A DNA stretch of 7,128 nucleotides. Origin: Chloroflexota bacterium (GTDB lineage Bacteria; Chloroflexota; Anaerolineae; Promineifilales; Promineifilaceae). A program made the position numbers and the translations under genes. Shown in pieces: positions 1 to 7,128 of the stretch (its first letter is position 1; every line of letters starts with the position of its first letter). The DNA is taken from positions 1 to 7,128 of the forward strand of contig QQUD01000452.1 of assembly GCA_008501785.1 (NCBI GenBank), read 5' to 3'. The notes beneath the pieces are model-generated. The model saw only the letters and a program-made list of their open reading frames with translations. It did no database searches and had not been told where the DNA came from.

Positions 1-293
1 GAACCACCGCGACCGCCAGCGACGCCGGTTGCTTTGCCCCTCAATTCGGCCATGACATTTTTGGTGGGCAGGCCAACTGCGAGTGCGTGCCCATGATCGC
101 GGTAGGCGGTCACGAGATGGTCTTGGTCTTGACGCGCAGCAATTGTCCCCACAGCAATTGCCTCTTGTCCGATATAAAGATGAAGGAAGCCTTTGATTTT
201 TCCTTCGAGTTGATACAGTTCGTCACTTTTTTCTTCAAAGCGGCGAATGAGCACCATTTGCCGGTACCAATCTAATAAGGTTGCTTTGTCCAT
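1..293 (-). CDS. pdhA: Pyruvate dehydrogenase E1 component, alpha subunit (5' part, runs off the window)
   Basis: The thiamine-diphosphate-dependent E1 enzyme decarboxylates pyruvate (or a related 2-oxo acid) and passes the acyl group to the E2 lipoyl domain. Translating the minus strand from 293 gives 97 residues typical of the E1-alpha N-terminus: [12 protein letters not shown] at residues 10-21, [15 protein letters not shown] at 35-49, the conserved YRDHGHAL at 64-71, and GVAGGRGGS at 90-98, which leads toward the usual substrate-channel loop. The thiamine-diphosphate motif (GDG...N) lies outside the window. The ATG is preceded by AAGGAG with a 6-base spacer. An earlier ATG four bases upstream is out of frame. 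An E1-alpha for acetoin (AcoA) or branched-chain oxo acids has the same N-terminal pattern and cannot be excluded. An E1-beta gene would be expected next, beyond position 1. Confidence 0.85.
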
Positions 294-317
294 TCATATC
301 TCCTTGAAATAGCATGA

Positions 318-351
318 AGCTATTAGCTTTCAGCTTTTAGCTATCAGCTTG
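318..351. repeat. Heptanucleotide tandem repeat (AGCTWTY)
   Basis: Four full 7-base units (AGCTATT, AGCTTTC, AGCTTTT, AGCTATC) and a fifth partial unit (AGCTTG) follow one another without gaps. The array lies 25-58 bases upstream of the pdhA start codon, so it would be in the leader of that transcript if the promoter lies farther upstream. It could be a simple-sequence expansion or a fragment of a dispersed repeat; one window cannot separate these. Confidence 0.7.
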
Positions 352-368
352 TTGTTTATCAATCATGG

Positions 369-407
369 GGCAAAATAGCGTTTTCTGTTGGAGACAGAGG
401 TTTTGCC
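369..407 (-). promoter_or_regulatory. Nested inverted repeat in the pdhA leader
   Basis: Outer arms GGCAAAA (369-375) and TTTTGCC (401-407) enclose inner arms TCTGT (384-388) and ACAGA (394-398) with a 5-base loop. A separate hairpin GTTTG-ctat-CAAAC follows at 409-422. In the minus-strand transcript these would lie roughly 75-130 bases before the pdhA start. No known riboswitch is recognised, so a regulatory role is inference from structure and position only. Confidence 0.3.
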
Positions 408-831
408 TGTTTGCTATCAAACCCAGCGAGATTGTGTGATTTTTAGATTTTAAAATGCAATTTTGTTGTGTCGTTTGTTTTGCAGACAAAGTTGCACCAT
501 CAACTAATTAGTTTAACAAAACTCCTGTAACATGGCGAGTTTCTGTTAATGTGACACTTAGTGAAATTTTAAGGTTTGGGACTAATCGTGGGTGTCTCAA
601 ATAGTGACTGACTTAGCTCATGAATTGATGATTCATAACTAGTTTGTTGACATTTTGTCAGTATATTGGGTTTTGTCGATTTTGGGTAATTATTTAGACT
701 TTCTTAATGGAGTGCAGGCACTTTGTTTTGAAGCTATTTTTGATGTGGATTGGGTTGGCTTTGTGATATGATTTGGGGGGTGGAAACGGCCGTTTTGTCA
801 AATTAACGTGCCGGTTAACAAAACTGAATGG

Positions 832-860
832 TTGGTTTGTGCAGATTCCATGCGTATAGA
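832..860 (+). promoter_or_regulatory. Possible sigma70-type promoter for the methyltransferase gene
   Basis: TTGGTT (832-837) and TATAGA (855-860) are separated by exactly 17 bases and lie about 70 bases before the ATG at 930. Each hexamer matches the consensus only partly (3/6 and 4/6). The -10 hexamer overlaps the right arm of the inverted repeat at 841-866, so a protein bound there could block it. This is a weak call based on spacing and position. Confidence 0.25.
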
Positions 861-866
861 ATCTGC
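841..866. repeat. Perfect 8-bp inverted repeat (GCAGATTC / GAATCTGC)
   Basis: Arms at 841-848 and 859-866 are exact reverse complements around a 10-base loop. The repeat lies between TAAC (816-819) and GTTA (888-891), with a second pair AACTG (822-826) / CAGTT (886-890) outside it. It could be an operator, an RNA hairpin or the central stem of an attC-like recombination site. Confidence 0.55.
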
Positions 867-929
867 TGAATAAATTGTAGGACGGCAGTTACGCATAACG
901 CATCAAATAAGTAACGGAAAAATAATAAA

Positions 930-1565
930 ATGGACCCAAAACAAATAGTTGCAGATGGATATGATTACATTGGAGAGCAACACGAGAAATGGGCAGGTGA
1001 TGTCAGGGTGGCAGAACGCACCAAATACACAAATGTATTGCTTGAGAAATTGCCAAAGGGTGCAAAAGTACTTGAGTTGGGTTGTGGCTCAGGTATACCG
1101 ACAACCAAACAATTAGCAAAAAGGTTTGATGTTACAGGGGTAGATATTTCTGCACAACAAGTTGCGCTTGCACGGCAAAAAGTTCCTGAAGCCAAATTTA
1201 TTCATGCAGATATGACAAAACTCAATTTCAAAAAAAATAGCTTTGATGCAATAACTGCATTTTATTCCATCATCCATGTCCCTCGTCAAGAACATGCAAA
1301 TCTTTTGTACAAAATAGCATCATGGTTGTGTCCTGGAGGGTTGCTGGTAATAACAATGGGAGCTAATTCAAACGAAACACAATTTAATGAAAACTGGTTA
1401 GGTGGCTTACCAATGTATTGGAGTAACTTTGACAGTAAAACAAATCGAAGATTAGTTAAAGAAACAGGTTTAACCATCATTAGTGCAATAGACGAAACTG
1501 CAAATGAATTTGACAAGCCTATTACCTTTCTTTGGATAATTGCACAAAAGTCAGAAGTCACCTAA
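930..1565 (+). CDS. Class I SAM-dependent methyltransferase, substrate unknown
   Basis: This 211-residue cytosolic protein has the Rossmann-fold methyltransferase core. The SAM-binding motif I, LELGCGSG, is at residues 48-55, and the acidic ribose-binding VDIS follows at 71-74. HADM is at 92-95, the motif IV-like segment DAITAFYSIIHV at 106-117, and LCPGGLLVIT at 133-142. The length fits small stand-alone methyltransferases of the Methyltransf_11/25 type. The substrate cannot be read from the sequence. The ATG at 930 is the first start after an in-frame stop at 912-914, and no Shine-Dalgarno sequence precedes it. Base composition is clearly more AT-rich than thrB or rlmI, and the gene contains no ACGGCCGT palindrome. 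With the structured segments on both sides, this suggests an acquired gene, possibly an integron-type cassette. Confidence 0.85.
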   Translation: MDPKQIVADGYDYIGEQHEKWAGDVRVAERTKYTNVLLEKLPKGAKVLELGCGSGIPTTKQLAKRFDVTGVDISAQQVALARQKVPEAKFIHADMTKLNFKKNSFDAITAFYSIIHVPRQEHANLLYKIASWLCPGGLLVITMGANSNETQFNENWLGGLPMYWSNFDSKTNRRLVKETGLTIISAIDETANEFDKPITFLWIIAQKSEVT

Positions 1566-1578
1566 TCCTGCGTAAATT

Positions 1579-1674
1579 TAACCCGCCCATAGCTCTCAGG
1601 GTTCTTGGTCAAAAGCCACCCAACAAGGTTTCCATCTGAGCCATTTTTCCCGCAAGCGGGATATGTGGGCGTTA
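1579..1674 (+). other. attC-like structured segment (candidate integron recombination site)
   Basis: The segment begins 14 bases after the methyltransferase stop. Its outer ends are TAAC (1579-1582) and GTTA (1671-1674). Inside these, GCCCA (1585-1589) can pair with TGGGC (1666-1670). Further in, GCTCTCAG (1592-1599) pairs partly with CTGAGC (1636-1641), and there is a compact hairpin TCCCGC-AA-GCGGGA (1648-1661). The 96-base length, the AAC/GTT outer triplets and the imperfect stem match attC architecture. The right end GTTAGTC departs from the GTTRRRY consensus, and no integrase is visible. This is inference by shape. Confidence 0.3.
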
Positions 1675-1682
1675 GTCTGCTC

Positions 1683-1689
1683 AGAGGAG
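1683..1689 (+). promoter_or_regulatory. Shine-Dalgarno that sets a TTG start
   Basis: AGAGGAG lies 6 bases before the TTG at 1696, which decides the start of the flavodoxin-ferredoxin gene. Its first bases are also part of GCTCAGA (1679-1685), the reverse complement of TCTGAGC (1635-1641), so the site could be partly hidden in an RNA stem. Confidence 0.6.
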
Positions 1690-1695
1690 ATTTCT

Positions 1696-2553
1696 TTGAC
1701 AGATAGAAAAATAGCGATTGTGTACTTTTCTGGAACGAAAGTGACGCAGACCTATGCAGAGGTTATGCGGGATGTTTTGATTGAACGTGGCTGCGAGGTT
1801 CGATTGTTCAATGTGACCTCGTATTCTGCTCGCCAGAAATCATTGCCAATCAATGATTTTGATGGAATCATTTTTGGGTTTCCTGTGTTTGCTGATTTTG
1901 CGCCTGAGGTGATTAATGAGTGGCTAAAAACCTTGGATGGGAAGGGGAAGCGATGTGCCTTGTTTTTTACGTATGGTGCAAGAACGACTGGATATGCCCA
2001 TTTTCACACCAAATTGCTGTTGGAGGAAGCGGGTTTCCAGGTGATGTTGTCAGCAGAATTTCTGGGACGGCATTCGTTTAATGTGGGTGGTTGGCAGATA
2101 TTGCCTGATCGTCCCGACGAGCAGGATTTTGCTGTGGCTCGTGACTATGTGGCATTAGTTTTGGATCGCTTTATGCAGGAATCGCCAGTTGTTTTTCAGT
2201 TGCAGAAACCGTTTGGCTACAATCATGCGATTACTTTGCGCGAAAACCCGCAGAAAAGCAGTGAGCGCAGGTGGACCCACCCTGTACGCGTTGTGGATGA
2301 ATGTGTGATGTGTCGTGATTGTGAAACGGAGTGTCCCACACAGGCATTTAATGCTGATACGGGCCTGTCAGAGCCAGAAAGTTGTATTGAGTGTATGCAT
2401 TGTGTGTACATTTGCCCTGATGAAGTTATAAAAATTAATGAGGGCATGAAAGGCGTTTACGAGAAATTTTTAGGGAACTGGCATTTAACAGAAGAAATGA
2501 TGAATGCCAAGAAGAGTAAGATTATTACGGAAGCGTGGCAAGCTGCTTTTTGA
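1696..2553 (+). CDS. EFR1-type flavodoxin-ferredoxin fusion protein
   Basis: The N-terminal half (about residues 1-165) is flavodoxin-like. It opens with beta strand IAIVYFSGT, whose SGT (12-14) is the expected FMN phosphate loop, followed by GFPVFADFAP (61-70) and FFTYGARTTG (90-99). The C-terminal part carries two ferredoxin motifs CxxCxxCxxxCP, with cysteines 203/206/209/213 and 230/233/236/240, so two [4Fe-4S] clusters are expected. Such fusions move electrons between an FMN and low-potential clusters in the cytosol; the partner is unknown. I choose the TTG at 1696 because AGAGGAG (1683-1689) precedes it by 6 bases and the fold begins immediately, giving 285 residues. The in-frame ATG at 1663 has no ribosome site, adds 11 unrelated residues and falls inside the upstream structured segment. 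The gene has no ACGGCCGT site. Confidence 0.85.
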   Translation: MTDRKIAIVYFSGTKVTQTYAEVMRDVLIERGCEVRLFNVTSYSARQKSLPINDFDGIIFGFPVFADFAPEVINEWLKTLDGKGKRCALFFTYGARTTGYAHFHTKLLLEEAGFQVMLSAEFLGRHSFNVGGWQILPDRPDEQDFAVARDYVALVLDRFMQESPVVFQLQKPFGYNHAITLRENPQKSSERRWTHPVRVVDECVMCRDCETECPTQAFNADTGLSEPESCIECMHCVYICPDEVIKINEGMKGVYEKFLGNWHLTEEMMNAKKSKIITEAWQAAF

Positions 2554-2603
2554 TCAAAGAAACGATTGCTTTATTTTAGTATTGGAAAGTTGATTTCCAG
2601 ACA

Positions 2604-2656
2604 GATAGGGAGGAATATGGATTTTTGTTGACTTAATATCCGTATTTCTCCCTATC
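2604..2656 (+). terminator. Long 19-bp hairpin after the flavodoxin-ferredoxin gene
   Basis: Left arm GATAGGGAGGAATATGGAT (2604-2622) and right arm ATCCGTATTTCTCCCTATC (2638-2656) pair over all 19 positions around a 15-base loop. Two of the pairs are G-U in the plus-strand RNA (2613/2647 and 2618/2642); the minus-strand RNA would have A-C mismatches there. It lies 50 bases after a plus-strand stop codon and before oppositely oriented genes. No T-tract follows, so it is not a classical intrinsic terminator. A 3'-end stabiliser or a small mobile-element remnant is equally possible. Confidence 0.45.
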
Positions 2657-2706
2657 CGAAAATCTTTCGTGCGGTTTTTGACACCTTTTTTTTGGCGTGG
2701 AATGTA

Positions 2707-2817
2707 TTATTGGGGCTGCTCGTTTTTTGCGATGATTTGGACGGTGCTGTCGGTTTTGTTGGTGGGTAGTATCCAGGATCGGCTGGTGAGTTTGGCGTTG
2801 GCGAAAACGGCCGTTAC
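2707..2817 (-). pseudogene. thrB: Duplicated 3' end of homoserine kinase (thrB relic)
   Basis: Read on the minus strand, this stretch encodes 33 residues that align with residues 283-315 of the intact homoserine kinase at 4508-5455. It runs from VTAVFANAKLTSRSWILP to KNE, with 25 of 33 identical by my hand count. At the DNA level 2734-2817 matches 4526-4609 at 75 of 84 positions. The native stop has become CAG, so the frame runs three codons further to a TAA at 2707-2709. No start or GHMP kinase core is present, and the frame upstream has unrelated sequence followed by a stop. Homology also extends past the stop: the 12-base word GTGCGGTTTTTG recurs at 2669-2680 and 4460-4471. Many of the base differences change the amino acid, as expected for a copy no longer under selection. 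Confidence 0.85.
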
Positions 2818-2854
2818 CCACCCTTGGCATGTCGGATAACAAAATGTAAATATA

Positions 2855-2899
2855 AACGCTAATGGCATCAGATTGTTGTTTCAATCCATTAAAAGCGTT
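2855..2899 (-). terminator. Inverted repeat just downstream of the oxidoreductase gene
   Basis: AACGCTAATGG (2855-2865) pairs with CCATT (2886-2890) and AGCGTT (2894-2899), with a three-base AAA bulge and a 20-base loop. It starts two bases after the stop codon on the minus strand and is followed there by the T-rich stretch TTTATATTTACATTTTG. A weak terminator or 3'-end structure is plausible, but the loop is long and the T-tract is interrupted. Confidence 0.35.
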
Positions 2900-2900
2900 G

Positions 2901-4394
2901 TCAAGCCGTCTGAAACTTCTTGCGGTCCTGCTTGCAAATGATTCGACTAACATCTCGCCCGGAAACGAAGGCCGCTGAAACGCCGCCGCCCGGGGATATC
3001 CATTGCCCAATCATGTGGAAATTTTTCAGCTTTGGCAGGGTTTTCTGCATCGTCTCCGGAATGAGTCCGGGCAACCAATCCCACCCTTGAATGCTACCCT
3101 TCCAGTTGTGTGTGTAACGAATAAATGTGGCTGGCGTCGAAACATCGATCACTTCAACTTGATCTTTGATATTTCCCAATCGTTGTTCCAGAATTTCGAT
3201 GAAATCCTGCGCTACGCGCTCTTTTTCTTGTGTGTATTTCTCAGGATCGTTTATTCGTAATTCCTGCCAGAAACGATGGTTTGTGGTTTTTAGAATGACA
3301 CGCAGACAGGTTTTTCCCTCCTCTGCCAAGGTGGGGTCAAACTTGTAGATCGTAATTGGTAGTGAAGTTAATTTTGATTCATCGTCCACAATCAATGGAT
3401 CGGTCAGCATTAAGTCGATCTGTGCCGGTTCACTTTCAAAGGTGCGCTTTAGCCCTAGAGATACCAGCACGGCTGAGGGCCACATCGCATGTTCTTGGTA
3501 CCGTTGTTTAATTTTCTTGTCGACAAATTGGCCTGCCAACATCTTGAAAATTGTGGCATGACCATCGGCGGCTGAGATTACCAAATCCGCAGGATGGGTT
3601 TCGCCCTTTTCAAGTGTGATCCCGATTGCTCGCTTATCCTTAACGTTGATCTTCTCTACCTTGGCATTGTAATGAATTTTGCCGCCCAGTTCTTTATACT
3701 TCTTTTCGATTTGCCGCACAAAACGCAACGATCCCCCAATCGGGTAGCCCGAGTTGTGGTTATGCAGTTCTCCAATACTCATTAAGAAGAAGTAAGCTGG
3801 AAAATGGGAGAAGAAATCTTGGTTTAGAACGCGTCTTAACAGGGGGCTTTGACAGGTTTTTGTGATTTCTGCCATGCTTTTCTGCCATCTGGATAACTGC
3901 TGTAAGTAAGGCCCGGTTCTGAACTGGCTCAGAAAATAATCAAGCGGATTCCACAGTTCTAGCGGTTTGGCAAGCTGCATATCATATTTTGCGAAATGCT
4001 TGATATCCTTGATTAAACTCTCAATGAATTTGCTGTCTTCTTGAGCGATTGTTTTCAGTTCTTGTTCCAATTTGTCTGGGTCGGTGTAGAGATGCACGAC
4101 GCGGCCATCTTCCAGGAACACCTGGCAAATCTCATCGTGGAAGTAGAAATCCATCTCCTCCAGGTCGACGATCTCATTCCACCACTGGTTGAGCTTATAT
4201 TCGGGTTTCAACGCGCCAAAGGAGTGCAGGCAACCGTCGAACATGTAGCCATTGGTTTTCCAAGAAGTACACAACCCACCCGGGATATTGTGGGCCTCGA
4301 AAATTTCGGTCTGGTAACCATTCATCTGCAGATAACAGCCAGCAGATAACCCTGCCACTCCTGCTCCGATGATGATTGTTTTTTTTGTTTTCAT
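2901..4394 (-). CDS. FAD-dependent oxidoreductase, phytoene desaturase / retinol saturase type
   Basis: This 497-residue protein has an N-terminal FAD-binding Rossmann motif GAGVAG (G10, G12, G15), with E33 placed to bind the FAD ribose and PGG at 38-40. A C-terminal FAD-contacting segment GQWISPGGGVSAAFVSGRD lies near residues 465-485. This pattern and length match the CrtI/CrtO/RetSat group, which oxidises or saturates carotenoids and related isoprenoid lipids. No other carotenoid gene is nearby, so the substrate is unknown. I choose ATG 4394 because AGGAG lies 4 bases upstream and the fold begins at once. An in-frame ATG at 4433 has no ribosome site and adds 13 unrelated residues. The gene lies between intact thrB and a thrB tail relic and contains no ACGGCCGT site, both of which suggest insertion of foreign DNA. 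Confidence 0.85.
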   Translation of the reverse strand: MKTKKTIIIGAGVAGLSAGCYLQMNGYQTEIFEAHNIPGGLCTSWKTNGYMFDGCLHSFGALKPEYKLNQWWNEIVDLEEMDFYFHDEICQVFLEDGRVVHLYTDPDKLEQELKTIAQEDSKFIESLIKDIKHFAKYDMQLAKPLELWNPLDYFLSQFRTGPYLQQLSRWQKSMAEITKTCQSPLLRRVLNQDFFSHFPAYFFLMSIGELHNHNSGYPIGGSLRFVRQIEKKYKELGGKIHYNAKVEKINVKDKRAIGITLEKGETHPADLVISAADGHATIFKMLAGQFVDKKIKQRYQEHAMWPSAVLVSLGLKRTFESEPAQIDLMLTDPLIVDDESKLTSLPITIYKFDPTLAEEGKTCLRVILKTTNHRFWQELRINDPEKYTQEKERVAQDFIEILEQRLGNIKDQVEVIDVSTPATFIRYTHNWKGSIQGWDWLPGLIPETMQKTLPKLKNFHMIGQWISPGGGVSAAFVSGRDVSRIICKQDRKKFQTA

Positions 4395-4507
4395 GGTACT
4401 CCTAATACTATGTTTGAATGATTGATTGTTCATTTGATTGACAGCTAATGGTATTTCTTGTGCGGTTTTTGTTATTTTGATTCGTATGGGGTGTGTTTTG
4501 TGTGGGG

Positions 4508-5455
4508 TTACTCATTTTTTGTGTCGATTTGGATGGTGCTGCCGGTTTTGTCGATGGGGAGTATCCAGGATCGGCTGGTGAGTCCGGCGTTGGCGAACAC
4601 GGCCGTTATCACCTCCACAATCTTCTCATGCCCATCTGGCGCAAATGCAATCACGCTGGGTCCTGCGCCACTGAGCGCAACCCCTTTTGCGCCAGCCTCT
4701 TTGGCTGCGGCAAATGCAGATGCCATGCCAGGAATGAGAGGGATGCGGTATTGGTGGTGTATTTTGTCTTGCATGGCGATGGCTAGTTTGTGGTAATCGG
4801 CCGTTTCTAACGCGCGGATGAGCAGCCCGAGATGACCTGCGTTGTAGATGGCGTCGGCGCGGCTGACGGTTTTGGGGAGTGCTGCACGTGCTTCGGTGGT
4901 GAGTAGGTGGAAATCGGGGAGGACGACGGCTGCTTGCATTGGCGCAATGGGCAGTTTTTCGATGTGCAAAACTGGGCCGGTTTGTGTGCCTAGCACGAGT
5001 CCGCCGTACAGTGCTGGTGCGACGTTGTCGGGATGTCCTTCGATTTCGTAGGCGATTTCGAGCAGTTCTGCGCGAGATAGCGGATTGTCTAACAGGGCGT
5101 TGGCTCCAAGTATTCCGGCGAGAACGGCCGTTGAACTGCTGCCCAGCCCGCTGCCGACGGGGATGTTGTTGGTTTGGTGGATGTGGAGGCAAGACGGCCG
5201 TTTTCCCAATCTCTCAAACAACACATTAGCCGATTCTACGACCAAATTACGGTGGGTAGTGGTGACTTTGTGAGCATCAATGCCGTCAACGGTGATGTGC
5301 AGCTCGGTGGGTTCTGGGTGGGTGAAGGGGATAAGTATTTCGGAAACGGCCGTGAACATTACATGATTAAATAATTCAAGTGCAAGACCAAGGCAGTCGA
5401 AGCCTGGGCCGAGGTTGGCGGTGGTGGCAGGGATGGATATTTTGATTTGTTTCAT
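4508..5455 (-). CDS. thrB: Homoserine kinase
   Basis: This enzyme phosphorylates L-homoserine with ATP to O-phosphohomoserine, the step before threonine synthase, in the cytosol. The 315-residue sequence is a full GHMP kinase. It has PATTANLGPGFDCLG at residues 9-23, the phosphate-binding loop PVGSGLGSSSTA at 99-110, EGHPDN at 139-144, and the C-terminal LSGAGPS at 261-267. Length is normal for the family. The ATG at 5455 fits the conserved N-terminus. Only a weak GGGA precedes it, so translation may be modest. No thrA or thrC is adjacent. The gene carries five CGGCCG-centred palindromes (4599, 4798, 5123, 5194 and 5345 regions), used in different reading frames. A diverged copy of its last 33 codons lies at 2707-2817. 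Confidence 0.95.
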   Translation of the reverse strand: MKQIKISIPATTANLGPGFDCLGLALELFNHVMFTAVSEILIPFTHPEPTELHITVDGIDAHKVTTTHRNLVVESANVLFERLGKRPSCLHIHQTNNIPVGSGLGSSSTAVLAGILGANALLDNPLSRAELLEIAYEIEGHPDNVAPALYGGLVLGTQTGPVLHIEKLPIAPMQAAVVLPDFHLLTTEARAALPKTVSRADAIYNAGHLGLLIRALETADYHKLAIAMQDKIHHQYRIPLIPGMASAFAAAKEAGAKGVALSGAGPSVIAFAPDGHEKIVEVITAVFANAGLTSRSWILPIDKTGSTIQIDTKNE

Positions 5456-5471
5456 GCTGGTCCCAATTTAG

Positions 5472-5486
5472 AGGTGCGTCGCACCT
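5472..5486. promoter_or_regulatory. 15-base perfect palindrome in the thrB-rlmI divergent region
   Basis: AGGTGCG (5472-5478) and CGCACCT (5480-5486) are exact reverse complements around one T. The palindrome lies 17 bases upstream of the thrB start and about 100 bases upstream of the likely rlmI start, where an operator for either gene could lie. It could also be a dispersed intergenic repeat. No factor is assigned. Confidence 0.4.
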
Positions 5487-5506
5487 GATGTTATATTTGT
5501 TTGTCA

Positions 5507-5528
5507 TTTGCGCAGTTATTTGTGCAAA
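5507..5528. repeat. Near-perfect inverted repeat TTTGCGCA / TGTGCAAA
   Basis: The arms at 5507-5514 and 5521-5528 match at 7 of 8 positions; the eighth is a G-T pair. The spacer is six bases. It lies in the leader of the rlmI gene, in the stretch that I think is not translated. A binding site or leader hairpin is possible. Confidence 0.35.
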
Positions 5529-5583
5529 CTGCATTTTATTGTACGCTAGAATGGTGAGACATCAATGGGATAGGAACACTAAA

Positions 5584-6828
5584 ATGGTTGCAGCAGTTTT
5601 GAACAATTTACCAAAAGCATCAGACAAAAGGCTGGCTGTGCGGGTGACGCCAGTGGCGGAGCGGGCTGTGCGCAGCGGGCATCCTTGGTTGTTTGATCAG
5701 GGGATTCGTCAATTGAGCCACGCAGGGCAGTCGGGTGATTTGGCGGTGGTTTTTGATCGGAAGAAGCGATTTATGGGGATTGGTTTATATGATCCGAAGT
5801 CACCGATTCGGGTGCGGATGCTGCACGCGGGTAAACCTGTGCAGATTGATGCGGAATGGTTTCAGGGGAGGATAGAAACGGCCGTTTCCCATCGCACCTC
5901 CCTGCAAAATACAGAAACAACCGGCTACCGGCTTGTGCATGGCGCAAATGACGGGCTGGAGGGTGTGGTGATTGACCGGTACGACCAAACGTATGTGGTG
6001 AAATTGTATACAGCGGCGTGGGTACGGCATTTACGGCCGTTACTGACTGCCCTGGTTGACTGTGTACAGCCGGAGCGAATTGTACTGCGGTTGAGCCGTA
6101 CAACAGCACAGGATGAGAATTTGCTCTATGGTTTGGAAAACGGGATGGTGCTGTACGGTGCGCCGTTGGATGGGCCGGTGATTTTTCAGGAAAATGGACT
6201 GCGTTTTATGGCTGATGTGGCGCGTGGGCAAAAAACCGGCTTCTTTTTAGACCAACGGGATAATCGGGCGCGGGTGGAAGCATTGGCGCAGGGCCAATCA
6301 GTGTTGAATGTGTTTGCCTATTCTGGCGGATTTTCGCTGTATGCGGCGCGAGGTGGGGCGACTGAGGCGGTAAGTCTTGATTTAAGTCGTCCGGCATTGG
6401 AGATGGCGGTAAACAATTTTGAACTAAATCGGGCGAATACGGCCGTTTCGCAATCCCATCACGAGTTGTTGGCGGGAGATGCGTTTCAGGAACTGGCGAA
6501 TTTGGCGGAAAACGGCCGTTTGTTTGACGTCGTGATTATCGATCCACCATCGTTTGCGCATAGCCAAGAACAAGTGGACCGAGCACTGGGCGCTTATGCG
6601 CGGCTGGTGCGGTTGGGTCTGCGGGTGCTGCACAGCGGCGGCACGTTGGTGATGGCATCTTGTTCGAGCCGAGTAACGGCGGACCGCTTTTTTGCAATGG
6701 TGCATGAGATGGCGGTGGGGGAAAAACGGCCGTTAATCGAACAAGAACGCACCGGTCATGCAATTGATCACCCGATTCGGTACAAAGAGGCGGCTTATTT
6801 GAAGTGTTTGTTTGCGGTGGCTCCTTAG
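5584..6828 (+). CDS. rlmI: 23S rRNA (cytosine-C5) methyltransferase, RlmI/RlmK-L family
   Basis: RlmI-type enzymes use SAM to make m5C1962 in 23S rRNA. The 414-residue product opens with a PUA-like RNA-binding domain (about 16-85, including SGHPWLFDQGI at 31-41). A central EEHUD-like domain follows, with GANDGLEGVVIDRY at 120-133. The Rossmann methyltransferase domain has GQKTGFFLDQRDNR at 215-228, SAM motif NVFAYSGGF at 242-250, DPPSF at 320-324, and ASCSS at 358-362, where C360 is the likely catalytic cysteine. I choose ATG 5584, which has AGGA 8 bases upstream. The in-frame ATG at 5488 would add a hydrophobic segment foreign to this soluble family, and it lacks a ribosome site. E. coli RlmI is about 396 residues. 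Five CGGCCG palindromes occur in the gene. The next gene starts 43 bases downstream and may be co-transcribed. Confidence 0.9.
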   Translation: MVAAVLNNLPKASDKRLAVRVTPVAERAVRSGHPWLFDQGIRQLSHAGQSGDLAVVFDRKKRFMGIGLYDPKSPIRVRMLHAGKPVQIDAEWFQGRIETAVSHRTSLQNTETTGYRLVHGANDGLEGVVIDRYDQTYVVKLYTAAWVRHLRPLLTALVDCVQPERIVLRLSRTTAQDENLLYGLENGMVLYGAPLDGPVIFQENGLRFMADVARGQKTGFFLDQRDNRARVEALAQGQSVLNVFAYSGGFSLYAARGGATEAVSLDLSRPALEMAVNNFELNRANTAVSQSHHELLAGDAFQELANLAENGRLFDVVIIDPPSFAHSQEQVDRALGAYARLVRLGLRVLHSGGTLVMASCSSRVTADRFFAMVHEMAVGEKRPLIEQERTGHAIDHPIRYKEAAYLKCLFAVAP

Positions 6829-6871
6829 AAGGCAACAACGGATAGGCGGGAGGAACGGATAGGGAAAAAAG

Positions 6872-7128
6872 ATGAAATTTCCTTGGGCGAATGTGGCGTT
6901 ATTGGTTTTTTTGGTTGTTTTGTTGGTGACTGGCTATTTTGGGTTTACGAATGGGCGTGTGGCGGGAGAATGGTTGCTGTGGCTGCATGGGATTGCAGCG
7001 TATGGGTTGATGGTGCTGCTGTTTTGGAAGGCGAGCATTGTTTTGGATGCTTACCGTCGCAAAAAGACGTGGACACGGGCGCGTGTGGTGTTTGCAATTA
7101 TGGCAGGACTGCTGCTGTTGACGCTGGT
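6872..7128 (+). CDS. Polytopic membrane protein, N-terminal part (cytochrome b-like or molybdopterin-oxidoreductase anchor?)
   Basis: Only the first 85 residues are in the window. A hydrophobic helix at about residues 7-25 is followed by a short loop. A second helix (33-53) begins with WLLWLHGIAAYGL, a basic loop YRRKKTWTRAR follows, and a third helix starts near residue 71. The ATG is preceded by AGGG (6861-6864) at a 7-base spacing. The pattern of a helix, a tryptophan-histidine-glycine helix and a basic loop resembles b-type cytochrome-like membrane regions, including those fused to sulfite-oxidase-type molybdopterin domains. The diagnostic C-terminal region is not visible, so this is only a suggestion. 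The start lies 43 bases after rlmI in the same direction. Confidence 0.6.
   Translation, partial: MKFPWANVALLVFLVVLLVTGYFGFTNGRVAGEWLLWLHGIAAYGLMVLLFWKASIVLDAYRRKKTWTRARVVFAIMAGLLLLTL

Follow-up and report, generated by a model that had tools for sequence, protein, structure and literature searches.

A highly iterated octamer palindrome kept at the DNA level in one order of Chloroflexota

HIP1 of cyanobacteria, the highly iterated palindrome GCGATCGC, is the closest described counterpart of the element reported here. In the sections covered of Elhai 2015 (PMC4390886), every cyanobacterial genome in which sequences are highly over-represented is said to carry one or more putative cognate methylases, four HIP1 genomes are listed without a CGATCG methylase, and the function of HIP1 in cyanobacteria is still called a mystery. 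In Synechocystis, M.Ssp6803II methylates GGCC, as stated in the passages found of PMC6560206. The present analysis concerns a contig of a Chloroflexota bacterium (GenBank assembly GCA_008501785.1, contig QQUD01000452.1, positions 1 to 7,128), referred to as the window in its full length of 7128 bases, and the octamer palindrome ACGGCCGT with the core CGGCCG, which is iterated in it. A first-pass annotation of this DNA had described the octamer as HIP1-like and had linked it to an orphan methyltransferase. Dialects of short words are also known from the uptake sequences of Neisseriaceae and Pasteurellaceae.

Iteration and conservation of the octamer

In the window, ACGGCCGT was counted 11 times against 0.09 expected, and CGGCCG 12 times against 1.49 expected; none of 200 dinucleotide shuffles reached either count. 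Nine of the octamers are coding and are spread over all three frames, whereas two are intergenic, and six of the 11 belong to the 10-mer AACGGCCGTT. Genome-wide counts were made in relatives of the window, not in the window's own genome. Across the class (396 genomes), AACGGCCGTT is present in 396 to 5060 copies in 19 genomes, in 79 to 149 copies in three, and in at most 29 copies elsewhere; the 22 genomes with at least 79 copies all belong to one order of 56 genomes. The term dense is used for the 29 of 56 genomes of one order with at least 360 AACGGCCGTT, in which reversed-control 10-mers reach at most 42. In the order of genome G378 (201 genomes), ACGGCCGT reaches at most about 80 per Mb.

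Eleven ACGGCCGT genomes (G880, G916, G884, G777, G904, G677, G888, G876, G900, G915, and G917) were sampled with 47 to 200 kb each, and expectations were calculated with an order-3 Markov model that was trained on site-masked sequence. In all 11, ACGGCCGT ranks first among the 256 octamer palindromes, with a density of 1075 to 1944 per Mb (1.1 to 1.9 per kb) and an observed-to-expected ratio (O/E) of 34 to 123; a further genome, G908, has 47 copies in 20 kb. The octamer is the unit, the outer A/T pair representing a weaker, lineage-dependent preference. The 10-mer was rejected as the unit: G880 has only 877 AACGGCCGTT in 7.7 Mb, yet 1930 ACGGCCGT per Mb. The first-pass annotation, which had counted 11 octamers and 12 CGGCCG with about 0.1 expected by chance, in all coding frames and between genes, thus stands with respect to the window; its expectation of an excess of tens of fold genome-wide was confirmed in the relatives, where 10-mer counts of up to 5060 also show that the enrichment is not limited to the window. 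Its comparison with HIP1 was likewise supported, as the palindrome is tens of fold in excess, independent of frame, and found throughout the sampled genomes of relatives.

In seven genomes analyzed for context, all three frames are used in each, frame 0 most and frame 2 least. The density is 1.46 to 1.92 per kb in coding and 0.77 to 1.96 per kb in noncoding DNA; the two values are 1.92 and 1.96 in G880 and 1.52 and 1.67 in G642, whereas noncoding DNA is lower (0.77 to 1.38) in the other five. The coefficient of variation of site spacing is 0.81 to 0.94 in four of the seven genomes and above 1 in three, and exponential spacing was rejected at the 0.05 level in four. The high value in G916 is due to a 25.8-kb stretch without any octamer (C90:103165-128944, pieces L220-L221), which has a G+C content (GC) of 0.469 versus 0.554 and is perhaps a mobile or recently acquired island. 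As a separate observation, chunks L040-L044 of G677 contain unrelated enriched octamers of the TCAAGTCT/GTCAAGTC family (O/E 22 to 24), perhaps a local repeat.

Sequence conservation was assessed between G915 and G917 (66.8 kb aligned, 81.2% identity). Here, ACGGCCGT was kept in 196 of 225 cases, compared to a fraction of 0.289 for its anagrams, which places it first of 70 octamers with at least 20 cases; each octamer position is 0.95 to 0.99 identical, and the flanks are 0.68 to 0.89 identical except for one position at 0.95. Between G900 and G876, at 93% identity, 196 of 200 and 78 of 80 sites were kept, versus 0.64. Third codon positions are 0.958 identical within sites (n = 259, union of both genomes) and 0.649 outside (n = 17031), first positions 0.947 and 0.880, second positions 0.949 and 0.938, and noncoding positions 0.945 and 0.820, respectively. 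The constraint therefore acts on the DNA and not on the protein, and ACGGCCGT in the relatives of the window, one order of Chloroflexota, is a highly iterated palindrome kept at the DNA level. Codon or amino acid preference, which the first-pass annotation had considered insufficient as an explanation, is ruled out by the three frames, the intergenic sites, and the conservation of third positions.

The effect on the proteome is large. With genes called by a simple open reading frame (ORF) rule, the tripeptide TAV, encoded by the octamer in frame 0, is the commonest tripeptide in all three genomes counted, with 329 (G880), 249 (G916), and 354 (G876) per 100,000 residues, compared to 45 and 49 in two pooled palindrome-free sets and 45 in G642; it is written as ACGGCCGT in 190 of 195, 139 of 152, and 103 of 107 cases. 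Genomes with other octamers, introduced below, behave alike: in G642, SAE is commonest (208), and SAE plus SAD are written as TCGGCCGA in 155 of 172 cases; in G909, SAE and ALL are equally frequent (17 each), and SAE plus SAD are TCGGCCGA in 18 of 23; in G720, AAA is commonest and is GCGGCCGC in 33 of 37. AAA is also the commonest tripeptide of a GC-rich palindrome-free set, but there only 3 of 84 are written as GCGGCCGC. The need for the octamer overrides protein sequence.

Near-variants were counted in ten pooled genomes. The core-only variants TCGGCCGT and GCGGCCGT are present at 4.4 and 2.1 times expectation, ACCGCCGT and ACGGCCCT are depleted (0.40 and 0.42 of expectation), and transitions within the core are little depleted (0.77 to 1.1). 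These values bear on a mutation or conversion bias acting alone, without any function. Depletion of ACCGCCGT and ACGGCCCT fits conversion into the site, and the flanking skew described below could be a repair footprint, but core transitions, the intermediates expected of a deamination type, should then be depleted, and some phage contigs are as dense as chromosomes, though the stay of a phage in its host is perhaps brief. We consider such a functionless bias highly improbable. A deamination hot spot was also rejected, as C-to-T changes are not in excess among the few lost sites.

Dialects and candidate methylases

Five sequence types occur in the one order: ACGGCCGT, TCGGCCGA, GCGGCCGC, TGCCGGCA, and the bare hexamer CGGCCG. 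TCGGCCGA was found 308 times in 200 kb of G642 (O/E 21) and 38 times in 31.6 kb of G909, and GCGGCCGC 56 times in 35.2 kb of G720 versus 0.9 expected. G912 (L238) has 17 TGCCGGCA in 20 kb and CGGCCG only once, its core being GCCGGC instead; its reversed-control count of 157 TTGCCGGCAA independently confirms this type. Mainly bare CGGCCG with mixed flanks was found in G693 (144), G741 (80), G810 (80), and G871 (96), in 20 to 29 kb and with 8 to 13 expected under a first-order model, and in G926 (87 in 17 kb versus 6.6 expected), which corresponds to about 3300 to 5100 CGGCCG per Mb in these five hexamer genomes. G810 is nevertheless among the 29 dense genomes by its 10-mer count, so that not all 29 are of the octamer type. 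The assumption that genomes without the 10-mer have no palindrome was dropped, since several carry other octamers. No such palindrome was found in G911, G833, G857, G919, and G759 of the same order or, outside it, in G006, G113, G298, G378, and G241. Smaller excesses were seen for GCCGGC in G012 (L269; 86 in 20 kb versus 29 expected, threefold, GC 0.66) and for the hexamer in GC-rich DNA of G145, G373, G660, G802, G818, G845, G851, and G920 (2.4- to 4.6-fold) and in 6 to 11 kb of G923, G924, and G928 (4.5- to 5.8-fold); 3.3 kb of G925 showed no palindrome excess, and the G921 and G927 pieces consist of N.

The types were compared with a tree of RlmI, which is based on a single gene with 44 rows, has a weakly supported backbone, and labels G924 as "none", a genome later found to have the weak hexamer excess. 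Four hexamer genomes branch outside, the TCGGCCGA genomes group with the hexamer genome G693, the GCGGCCGC genome G720 is sister to a ACGGCCGT genome (95/82), and the TGCCGGCA genome G912 is sister to another (84/77). As sisters on this one-gene tree differ in dialect, switching between lineages is likely. The bare hexamer may be an ancestral or a different state.

A constant CGGCCG core with varying outer bases mirrors HIP1 and TCGATCGA of cyanobacteria in the sections covered of PMC4390886. An explanation of the HIP1 type, following the model of Elhai 2015, would have CGGCCG modified by an orphan enzyme, with the octamers both created and kept by methyl-directed mismatch repair or a different reader, and the tolerance of the core-only variants TCGGCCGT and GCGGCCGT is in its favor. 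The search for the enzyme, with family cut-offs of E up to 1e-10 for PF00145, 1e-6 for PF01555, and 1e-4 for PF02086, speaks against it. PF00145 is present in 25 of the 56 genomes of the order and missing from 14 of the 29 dense ones; PF01555 is present in 43 of 56, missing from 4 of the 29, and only weakly matched in G707 and G917. Both are unmatched in three of the 29 dense genomes (G880, G910, and G922); gaps in the assembly could conceal a gene in an individual genome, and methylases of other families, or different ones from genome to genome, are possible. ComEC, used as a completeness yardstick, is present in all three, as it is in 50 of 56 genomes, comprising 27 of the 29 dense and 23 of the 27 others. 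In the hexamer-type genome G741, all three families are unmatched. PF02086 is found in 43 of 56 and in 26 of 29 dense genomes, but also in the palindrome-free relatives G911, G833, and G857. All 30 PF02086 proteins examined contain DPPY; two that were tested fit the Dam family TIGR00571, and the one compared with the PDB has DpnM and Dam as its nearest entries, so that the methylase looks Dam-type in the two proteins tested. Neither 5-methylcytosine (m5C), N4/N6, nor D12 methylases of these families are thus common to all carriers, and the link to an orphan CGGCCG methyltransferase suggested by the first-pass annotation was not borne out. Furthermore, Elhai's GmeC rule, as we reason, gives no A..T or T..A flanks, and dense phage sites would be unexpected from a slow repair bias. 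On balance, a HIP1-type origin appears unlikely.

The ComEC counts also bear on a role as DNA uptake sequence, in which competent cells would favor tagged fragments and octamers would spread by biased transformation. The presence of ComEC in nearly all dense genomes is compatible with this role, but its presence in most other genomes of the order makes it non-discriminating. About one site per kb, dialects, an effect on the proteome, and the mild spacing regularity in four of the seven genomes resemble uptake sequences; these are, to our knowledge, not palindromic, and phages would have no obvious gain from an uptake tag. We regard this role as very unlikely.

Flanking skew, viral contigs, and a possible role

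The DNA around the sites is G-rich on the strand whose 3' end faces the site, in a strand-symmetric manner that fades over about 50 bp. On this strand (n = 1410), the fractions of G and C are 0.50 and 0.17 at 3 to 4 bases, 0.39 and 0.20 at 5 to 7, 0.34 and 0.21 at 11 to 15, 0.31 and 0.24 at 21 to 30, and near level (0.30 and 0.28) at 51 to 100. The difference G-C at 3 to 30 bp is 0.113 to 0.134 in nine of nine ACGGCCGT sets from relatives and 0.214 in the window (n = 11); in the other dialects, it is 0.070 (G642), 0.122 (G909), 0.105 (G720), and 0.086 (G912; z 2.5, n = 17). The T-A skew is small, 0.004 to 0.04 in the ACGGCCGT sets. A comparable gradient was absent at eight control palindromes and at CGGCCG outside the octamer (n = 424). 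At HIP1 sites (n = 198) within 446 kb of partial sequence from three cyanobacterial plasmids, the skew is 0.030 (z 3.9), with 0.020 (z 2.1) and 0.006 for two control palindromes. The skew peaks at third codon positions (0.52 and 0.16 at 5 to 7 bases) and is also seen in noncoding DNA (0.34 and 0.23). Substitution spectra near the sites seem to track composition and did not reveal a mutation behind the skew.

An element of the repetitive extragenic palindromic (REP) or hairpin type was considered and rejected, no stem being found. Pairing of mirror positions gave only weak effects (z -2.4 to 2.3), and swapping the right flanks among 300 sites left the folding energy unchanged (+0.21 +- 0.27 kcal/mol); therefore, the skew does not stem from a hairpin. 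A shuffle-based fold test gave -1.25 +- 0.23, which is attributed to shuffling away the composition gradient.

Viral contigs of IMG/VR were searched with a two-site seed, i.e., two AACGGCCGTT 5 to 35 bases apart. This yielded 25 stretches from 22 contigs, 16 of which (13 contigs) hold at least five ACGGCCGT. L316 has 31 ACGGCCGT in 14.3 kb, L300 22 in 12.9 kb, and L310 27 in 14.8 kb, i.e., 1.7 to 2.2 sites per kb, and all three encode terminase, portal, head-protease, or tape-measure proteins, with sites within those genes. A three-site seed gave 19 stretches, two of them shared with the two-site set; most of the new ones have three to eight octamers, and the richest are L332 (IMG/VR 3300048592_001391; 48 in 13.6 kb), L338 (31 in 12.2 kb), and L336 (19 in 9.3 kb). 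In a scan for TCGGCCGA, L320 holds 11 TCGGCCGA and no ACGGCCGT, and five other stretches hold two or three TCGGCCGA. Separately, L293 (IMG/VR 3300033417_000002), with 49 octamers in 13.2 kb (3.7 per kb) and ParA, FtsK-like, and transglycosylase genes, looks like a plasmid though filed as viral. Phages would be expected to avoid the target of a restriction enzyme, but L316, L300, and L310, found by site seeds, are dense in the octamer. Since some phages carry the site, we argue that DNA benefits from having it in these cells.

The exact octamer is kept in every context and differs as a whole between lineages; therefore, a symmetric sequence-specific reader is the simplest assumption. The octamer would label DNA as self and be recognized symmetrically by an enzyme specific for its sequence, and its likeliest role would be that of a Chi-type regulatory site for an end-processing recombination nuclease of the AddAB/RecBCD/AdnAB kind. 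The palindrome would be recognized from either side: degradation that starts at a break would halt at the nearest site, leaving a 3' single strand that ends there and would then be used for repair from a homologue, so that native DNA would be rescued, untagged incoming DNA degraded, and tag-bearing phages would gain. The observations that this mechanism draws on are the density, conservation, and dialects of the octamer, the G-rich 3'-ended strand, the site-poor low-GC stretches, and the dense phage contigs; the identity of the reader, the cutting or unwinding, and the recombination are steps that we infer. After processing to Chi, it is the G-rich 3'-ended strand that is left single. The Chi-type reading is favored because the G-rich 3'-ended strand at the octamer matches this strand, and because no cytosine methylase of the two tested families is common to the carriers. 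Phages with abundant Chi sites have reportedly been described. According to passages of PMC12904381, RecA loads onto the 3' single strand at Chi, and some phages inhibit RecBCD; these are presumably phages with few Chi sites.

Several points weigh against this role. Densities in the seeded viral stretches are biased upward by the dense seeds, and nine of the 25 have no octamer beyond the two of the seed. In the viral collection, ten octamer-dense stretches show only a weak skew (0.036, n = 226), so that the skew may reflect a slow mutational imprint rather than belong to the signal itself; in hexamer-type genomes, it is nearly nil (0.026). We know of no Chi site that is palindromic. A crude motif scan for AddA/RecB-like proteins, confined to the sampled contigs, gave one candidate ORF. 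Finally, the conservation and the dialects would be accounted for equally well by any protein that binds DNA as a dimer. One such case is an abundant dimeric protein, of the nucleoid or silencing kind, that binds the octamer and packs self DNA, phages copying the site to pass as self. The exact palindrome, its conservation at the DNA level, its presence in some phages, and the similar densities within and between genes in G880 (noncoding lower in five of the seven genomes) agree with this, but the strand-polar skew is not predicted by it, and no candidate protein was found; we take it to be quite unlikely. Our tentative preference thus remains a self-DNA tag that acts in both directions, of the Chi type or a related one, with a recombination or defence enzyme as its reader; this is a real possibility that falls short of being probable. 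The full picture is rather doubtful: a palindromic, bidirectional Chi-like self-identity code with dialects, in which a nuclease that processes ends would read the octamer as a mark of self DNA placed at intervals of a few hundred bases, the proteome would be rewritten (TAV, SAE, or AAA commonest, depending on the dialect), a strand-polar skew would be left at every site, the sequence would switch among related lineages, and phages would copy the dialect that matches.

Genes of the window and comparison with known systems

The features of the window are listed in Table 1. The octamers are unevenly distributed, with nine in thrB and rlmI (4508-6828) and none in the three genes at 930-4433, which have a GC of 0.38 to 0.46 compared to 0.54 to 0.55 in thrB and rlmI. 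These three low-GC genes were probably acquired, and absence of the octamer may be a mark of recent gene acquisition. The 3' end of thrB is duplicated (window positions 2669-2816 and 4460-4608, 80% identity over 151 columns), and the site at 2807 is not fully independent of that at 4599 because it lies within the duplicated fragment. The copies flank the phytoene-desaturase-type gene, which suggests an insertion or duplication tied to that gene. The rlmI product matches best the NCBIfam entry Rlm_2499C5 with 465 bits, under its cut-off of 650. Named RlmI relatives among the 120 matches listed are mostly Chloroflexota (Anaerolineales, Ardenticatenaceae, Promineifilaceae, and Candidatus Leptofilum, which belongs to Promineifilales by NCBI placement). 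With thrB as query for relatives, three distant loci were obtained.

Table 1. Octamer sites and genes of the 7128-base window
Feature	Position	Strand	Remarks
ACGGCCGT	786..793		intergenic
SAM (S-adenosylmethionine) methyltransferase	930..1565	+	no ACGGCCGT site
EFR1-type flavodoxin/ferredoxin	1663..2553	+	no ACGGCCGT site
ACGGCCGT	2807..2814		intergenic, inside duplicated fragment of thrB 3' end
Phytoene-desaturase-type FAD protein	2901..4433	-	no ACGGCCGT site
thrB, homoserine kinase	4508..5455	-	TIGR00191 264 bits, cut-off 168; 4 ACGGCCGT in 948 bp
ACGGCCGT	4599..4606		thrB, frame 0 (TAV)
Near-site TCGGCCGT	4797..4804		thrB; CGGCCG core only (twelfth CGGCCG)
ACGGCCGT	5124..5131		thrB, frame 0 (TAV)
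ACGGCCGT	5194..5201		thrB, frame 2 (RP)
ACGGCCGT	5346..5353		thrB, frame 0 (TAV)
Class I SAM-dependent rRNA methyltransferase, RlmI kind	5584..6828	+	5 ACGGCCGT in 1245 bp
ACGGCCGT	5878..5885		rlmI, frame 0 (TAV)
ACGGCCGT	6033..6040		rlmI, frame 2 (RP)
ACGGCCGT	6439..6446		rlmI, frame 0 (TAV)
ACGGCCGT	6512..6519		rlmI, frame 1 (NGR)
ACGGCCGT	6726..6733		rlmI, frame 2 (RP)

The first-pass annotation knew of no described equivalent, and among the matches listed no description was found in the open-access literature. A term search and the sections covered of PMC4390886 gave neither CGGCCG nor Chloroflexi, and the passages found of PMC6329791 and PMC12772301, on methylation in Chloroflexi, do not give CGGCCG as a methylated motif. 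The evidence supports that the octamer system is of the HIP-like kind already known, in a phylum for which no description was found within that literature. It would be a second, independent HIP system in another phylum. With five types in the one order, apparent losses of the palindrome, and phages that carry it, it permits comparative tests for which cyanobacteria give no opportunity. A DNA word that can determine which tripeptide is most frequent in a proteome calls for caution in reading such residues as protein adaptation. The octamer may also be useful as a compositional mark of recent gene acquisition and in assigning phages to hosts that have not been cultured. The skew in its flanks points to DNA processing that is strand-specific there.

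As in HIP1 and the alternate HIPs, in the sections covered of Elhai 2015 (PMC4390886), a GC-rich octamer palindrome occurs about once per kb, with a constant six-base core, outer bases that vary among related genomes, and an occasional change of the core. It differs from HIP1 in its core, CGGCCG (GCCGGC in G912) instead of that of GCGATCGC, in its phylum, in having no cytosine methylase of the two tested families common to all carriers, in being dense in some phage contigs, and in a flanking skew stronger than that of HIP1 in the three cyanobacterial plasmids (0.11 to 0.13 versus 0.030). With restriction-modification of the EagI type, it shares the CGGCCG core, but under restriction one would expect phages to be poor in the site, and some here are rich in it; no common methylase was found. 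DNA uptake sequences (DUS/USS) are similar in density, dialects, and effect on proteins; unlike them, the octamer is palindromic and dense in some phages. Chi of RecBCD/AddAB differs in that the octamer is palindromic and hence without orientation, including any with respect to replication; the two are alike as short, dense, lineage-specific, over-represented, and conserved words with a G-rich 3'-ended strand.

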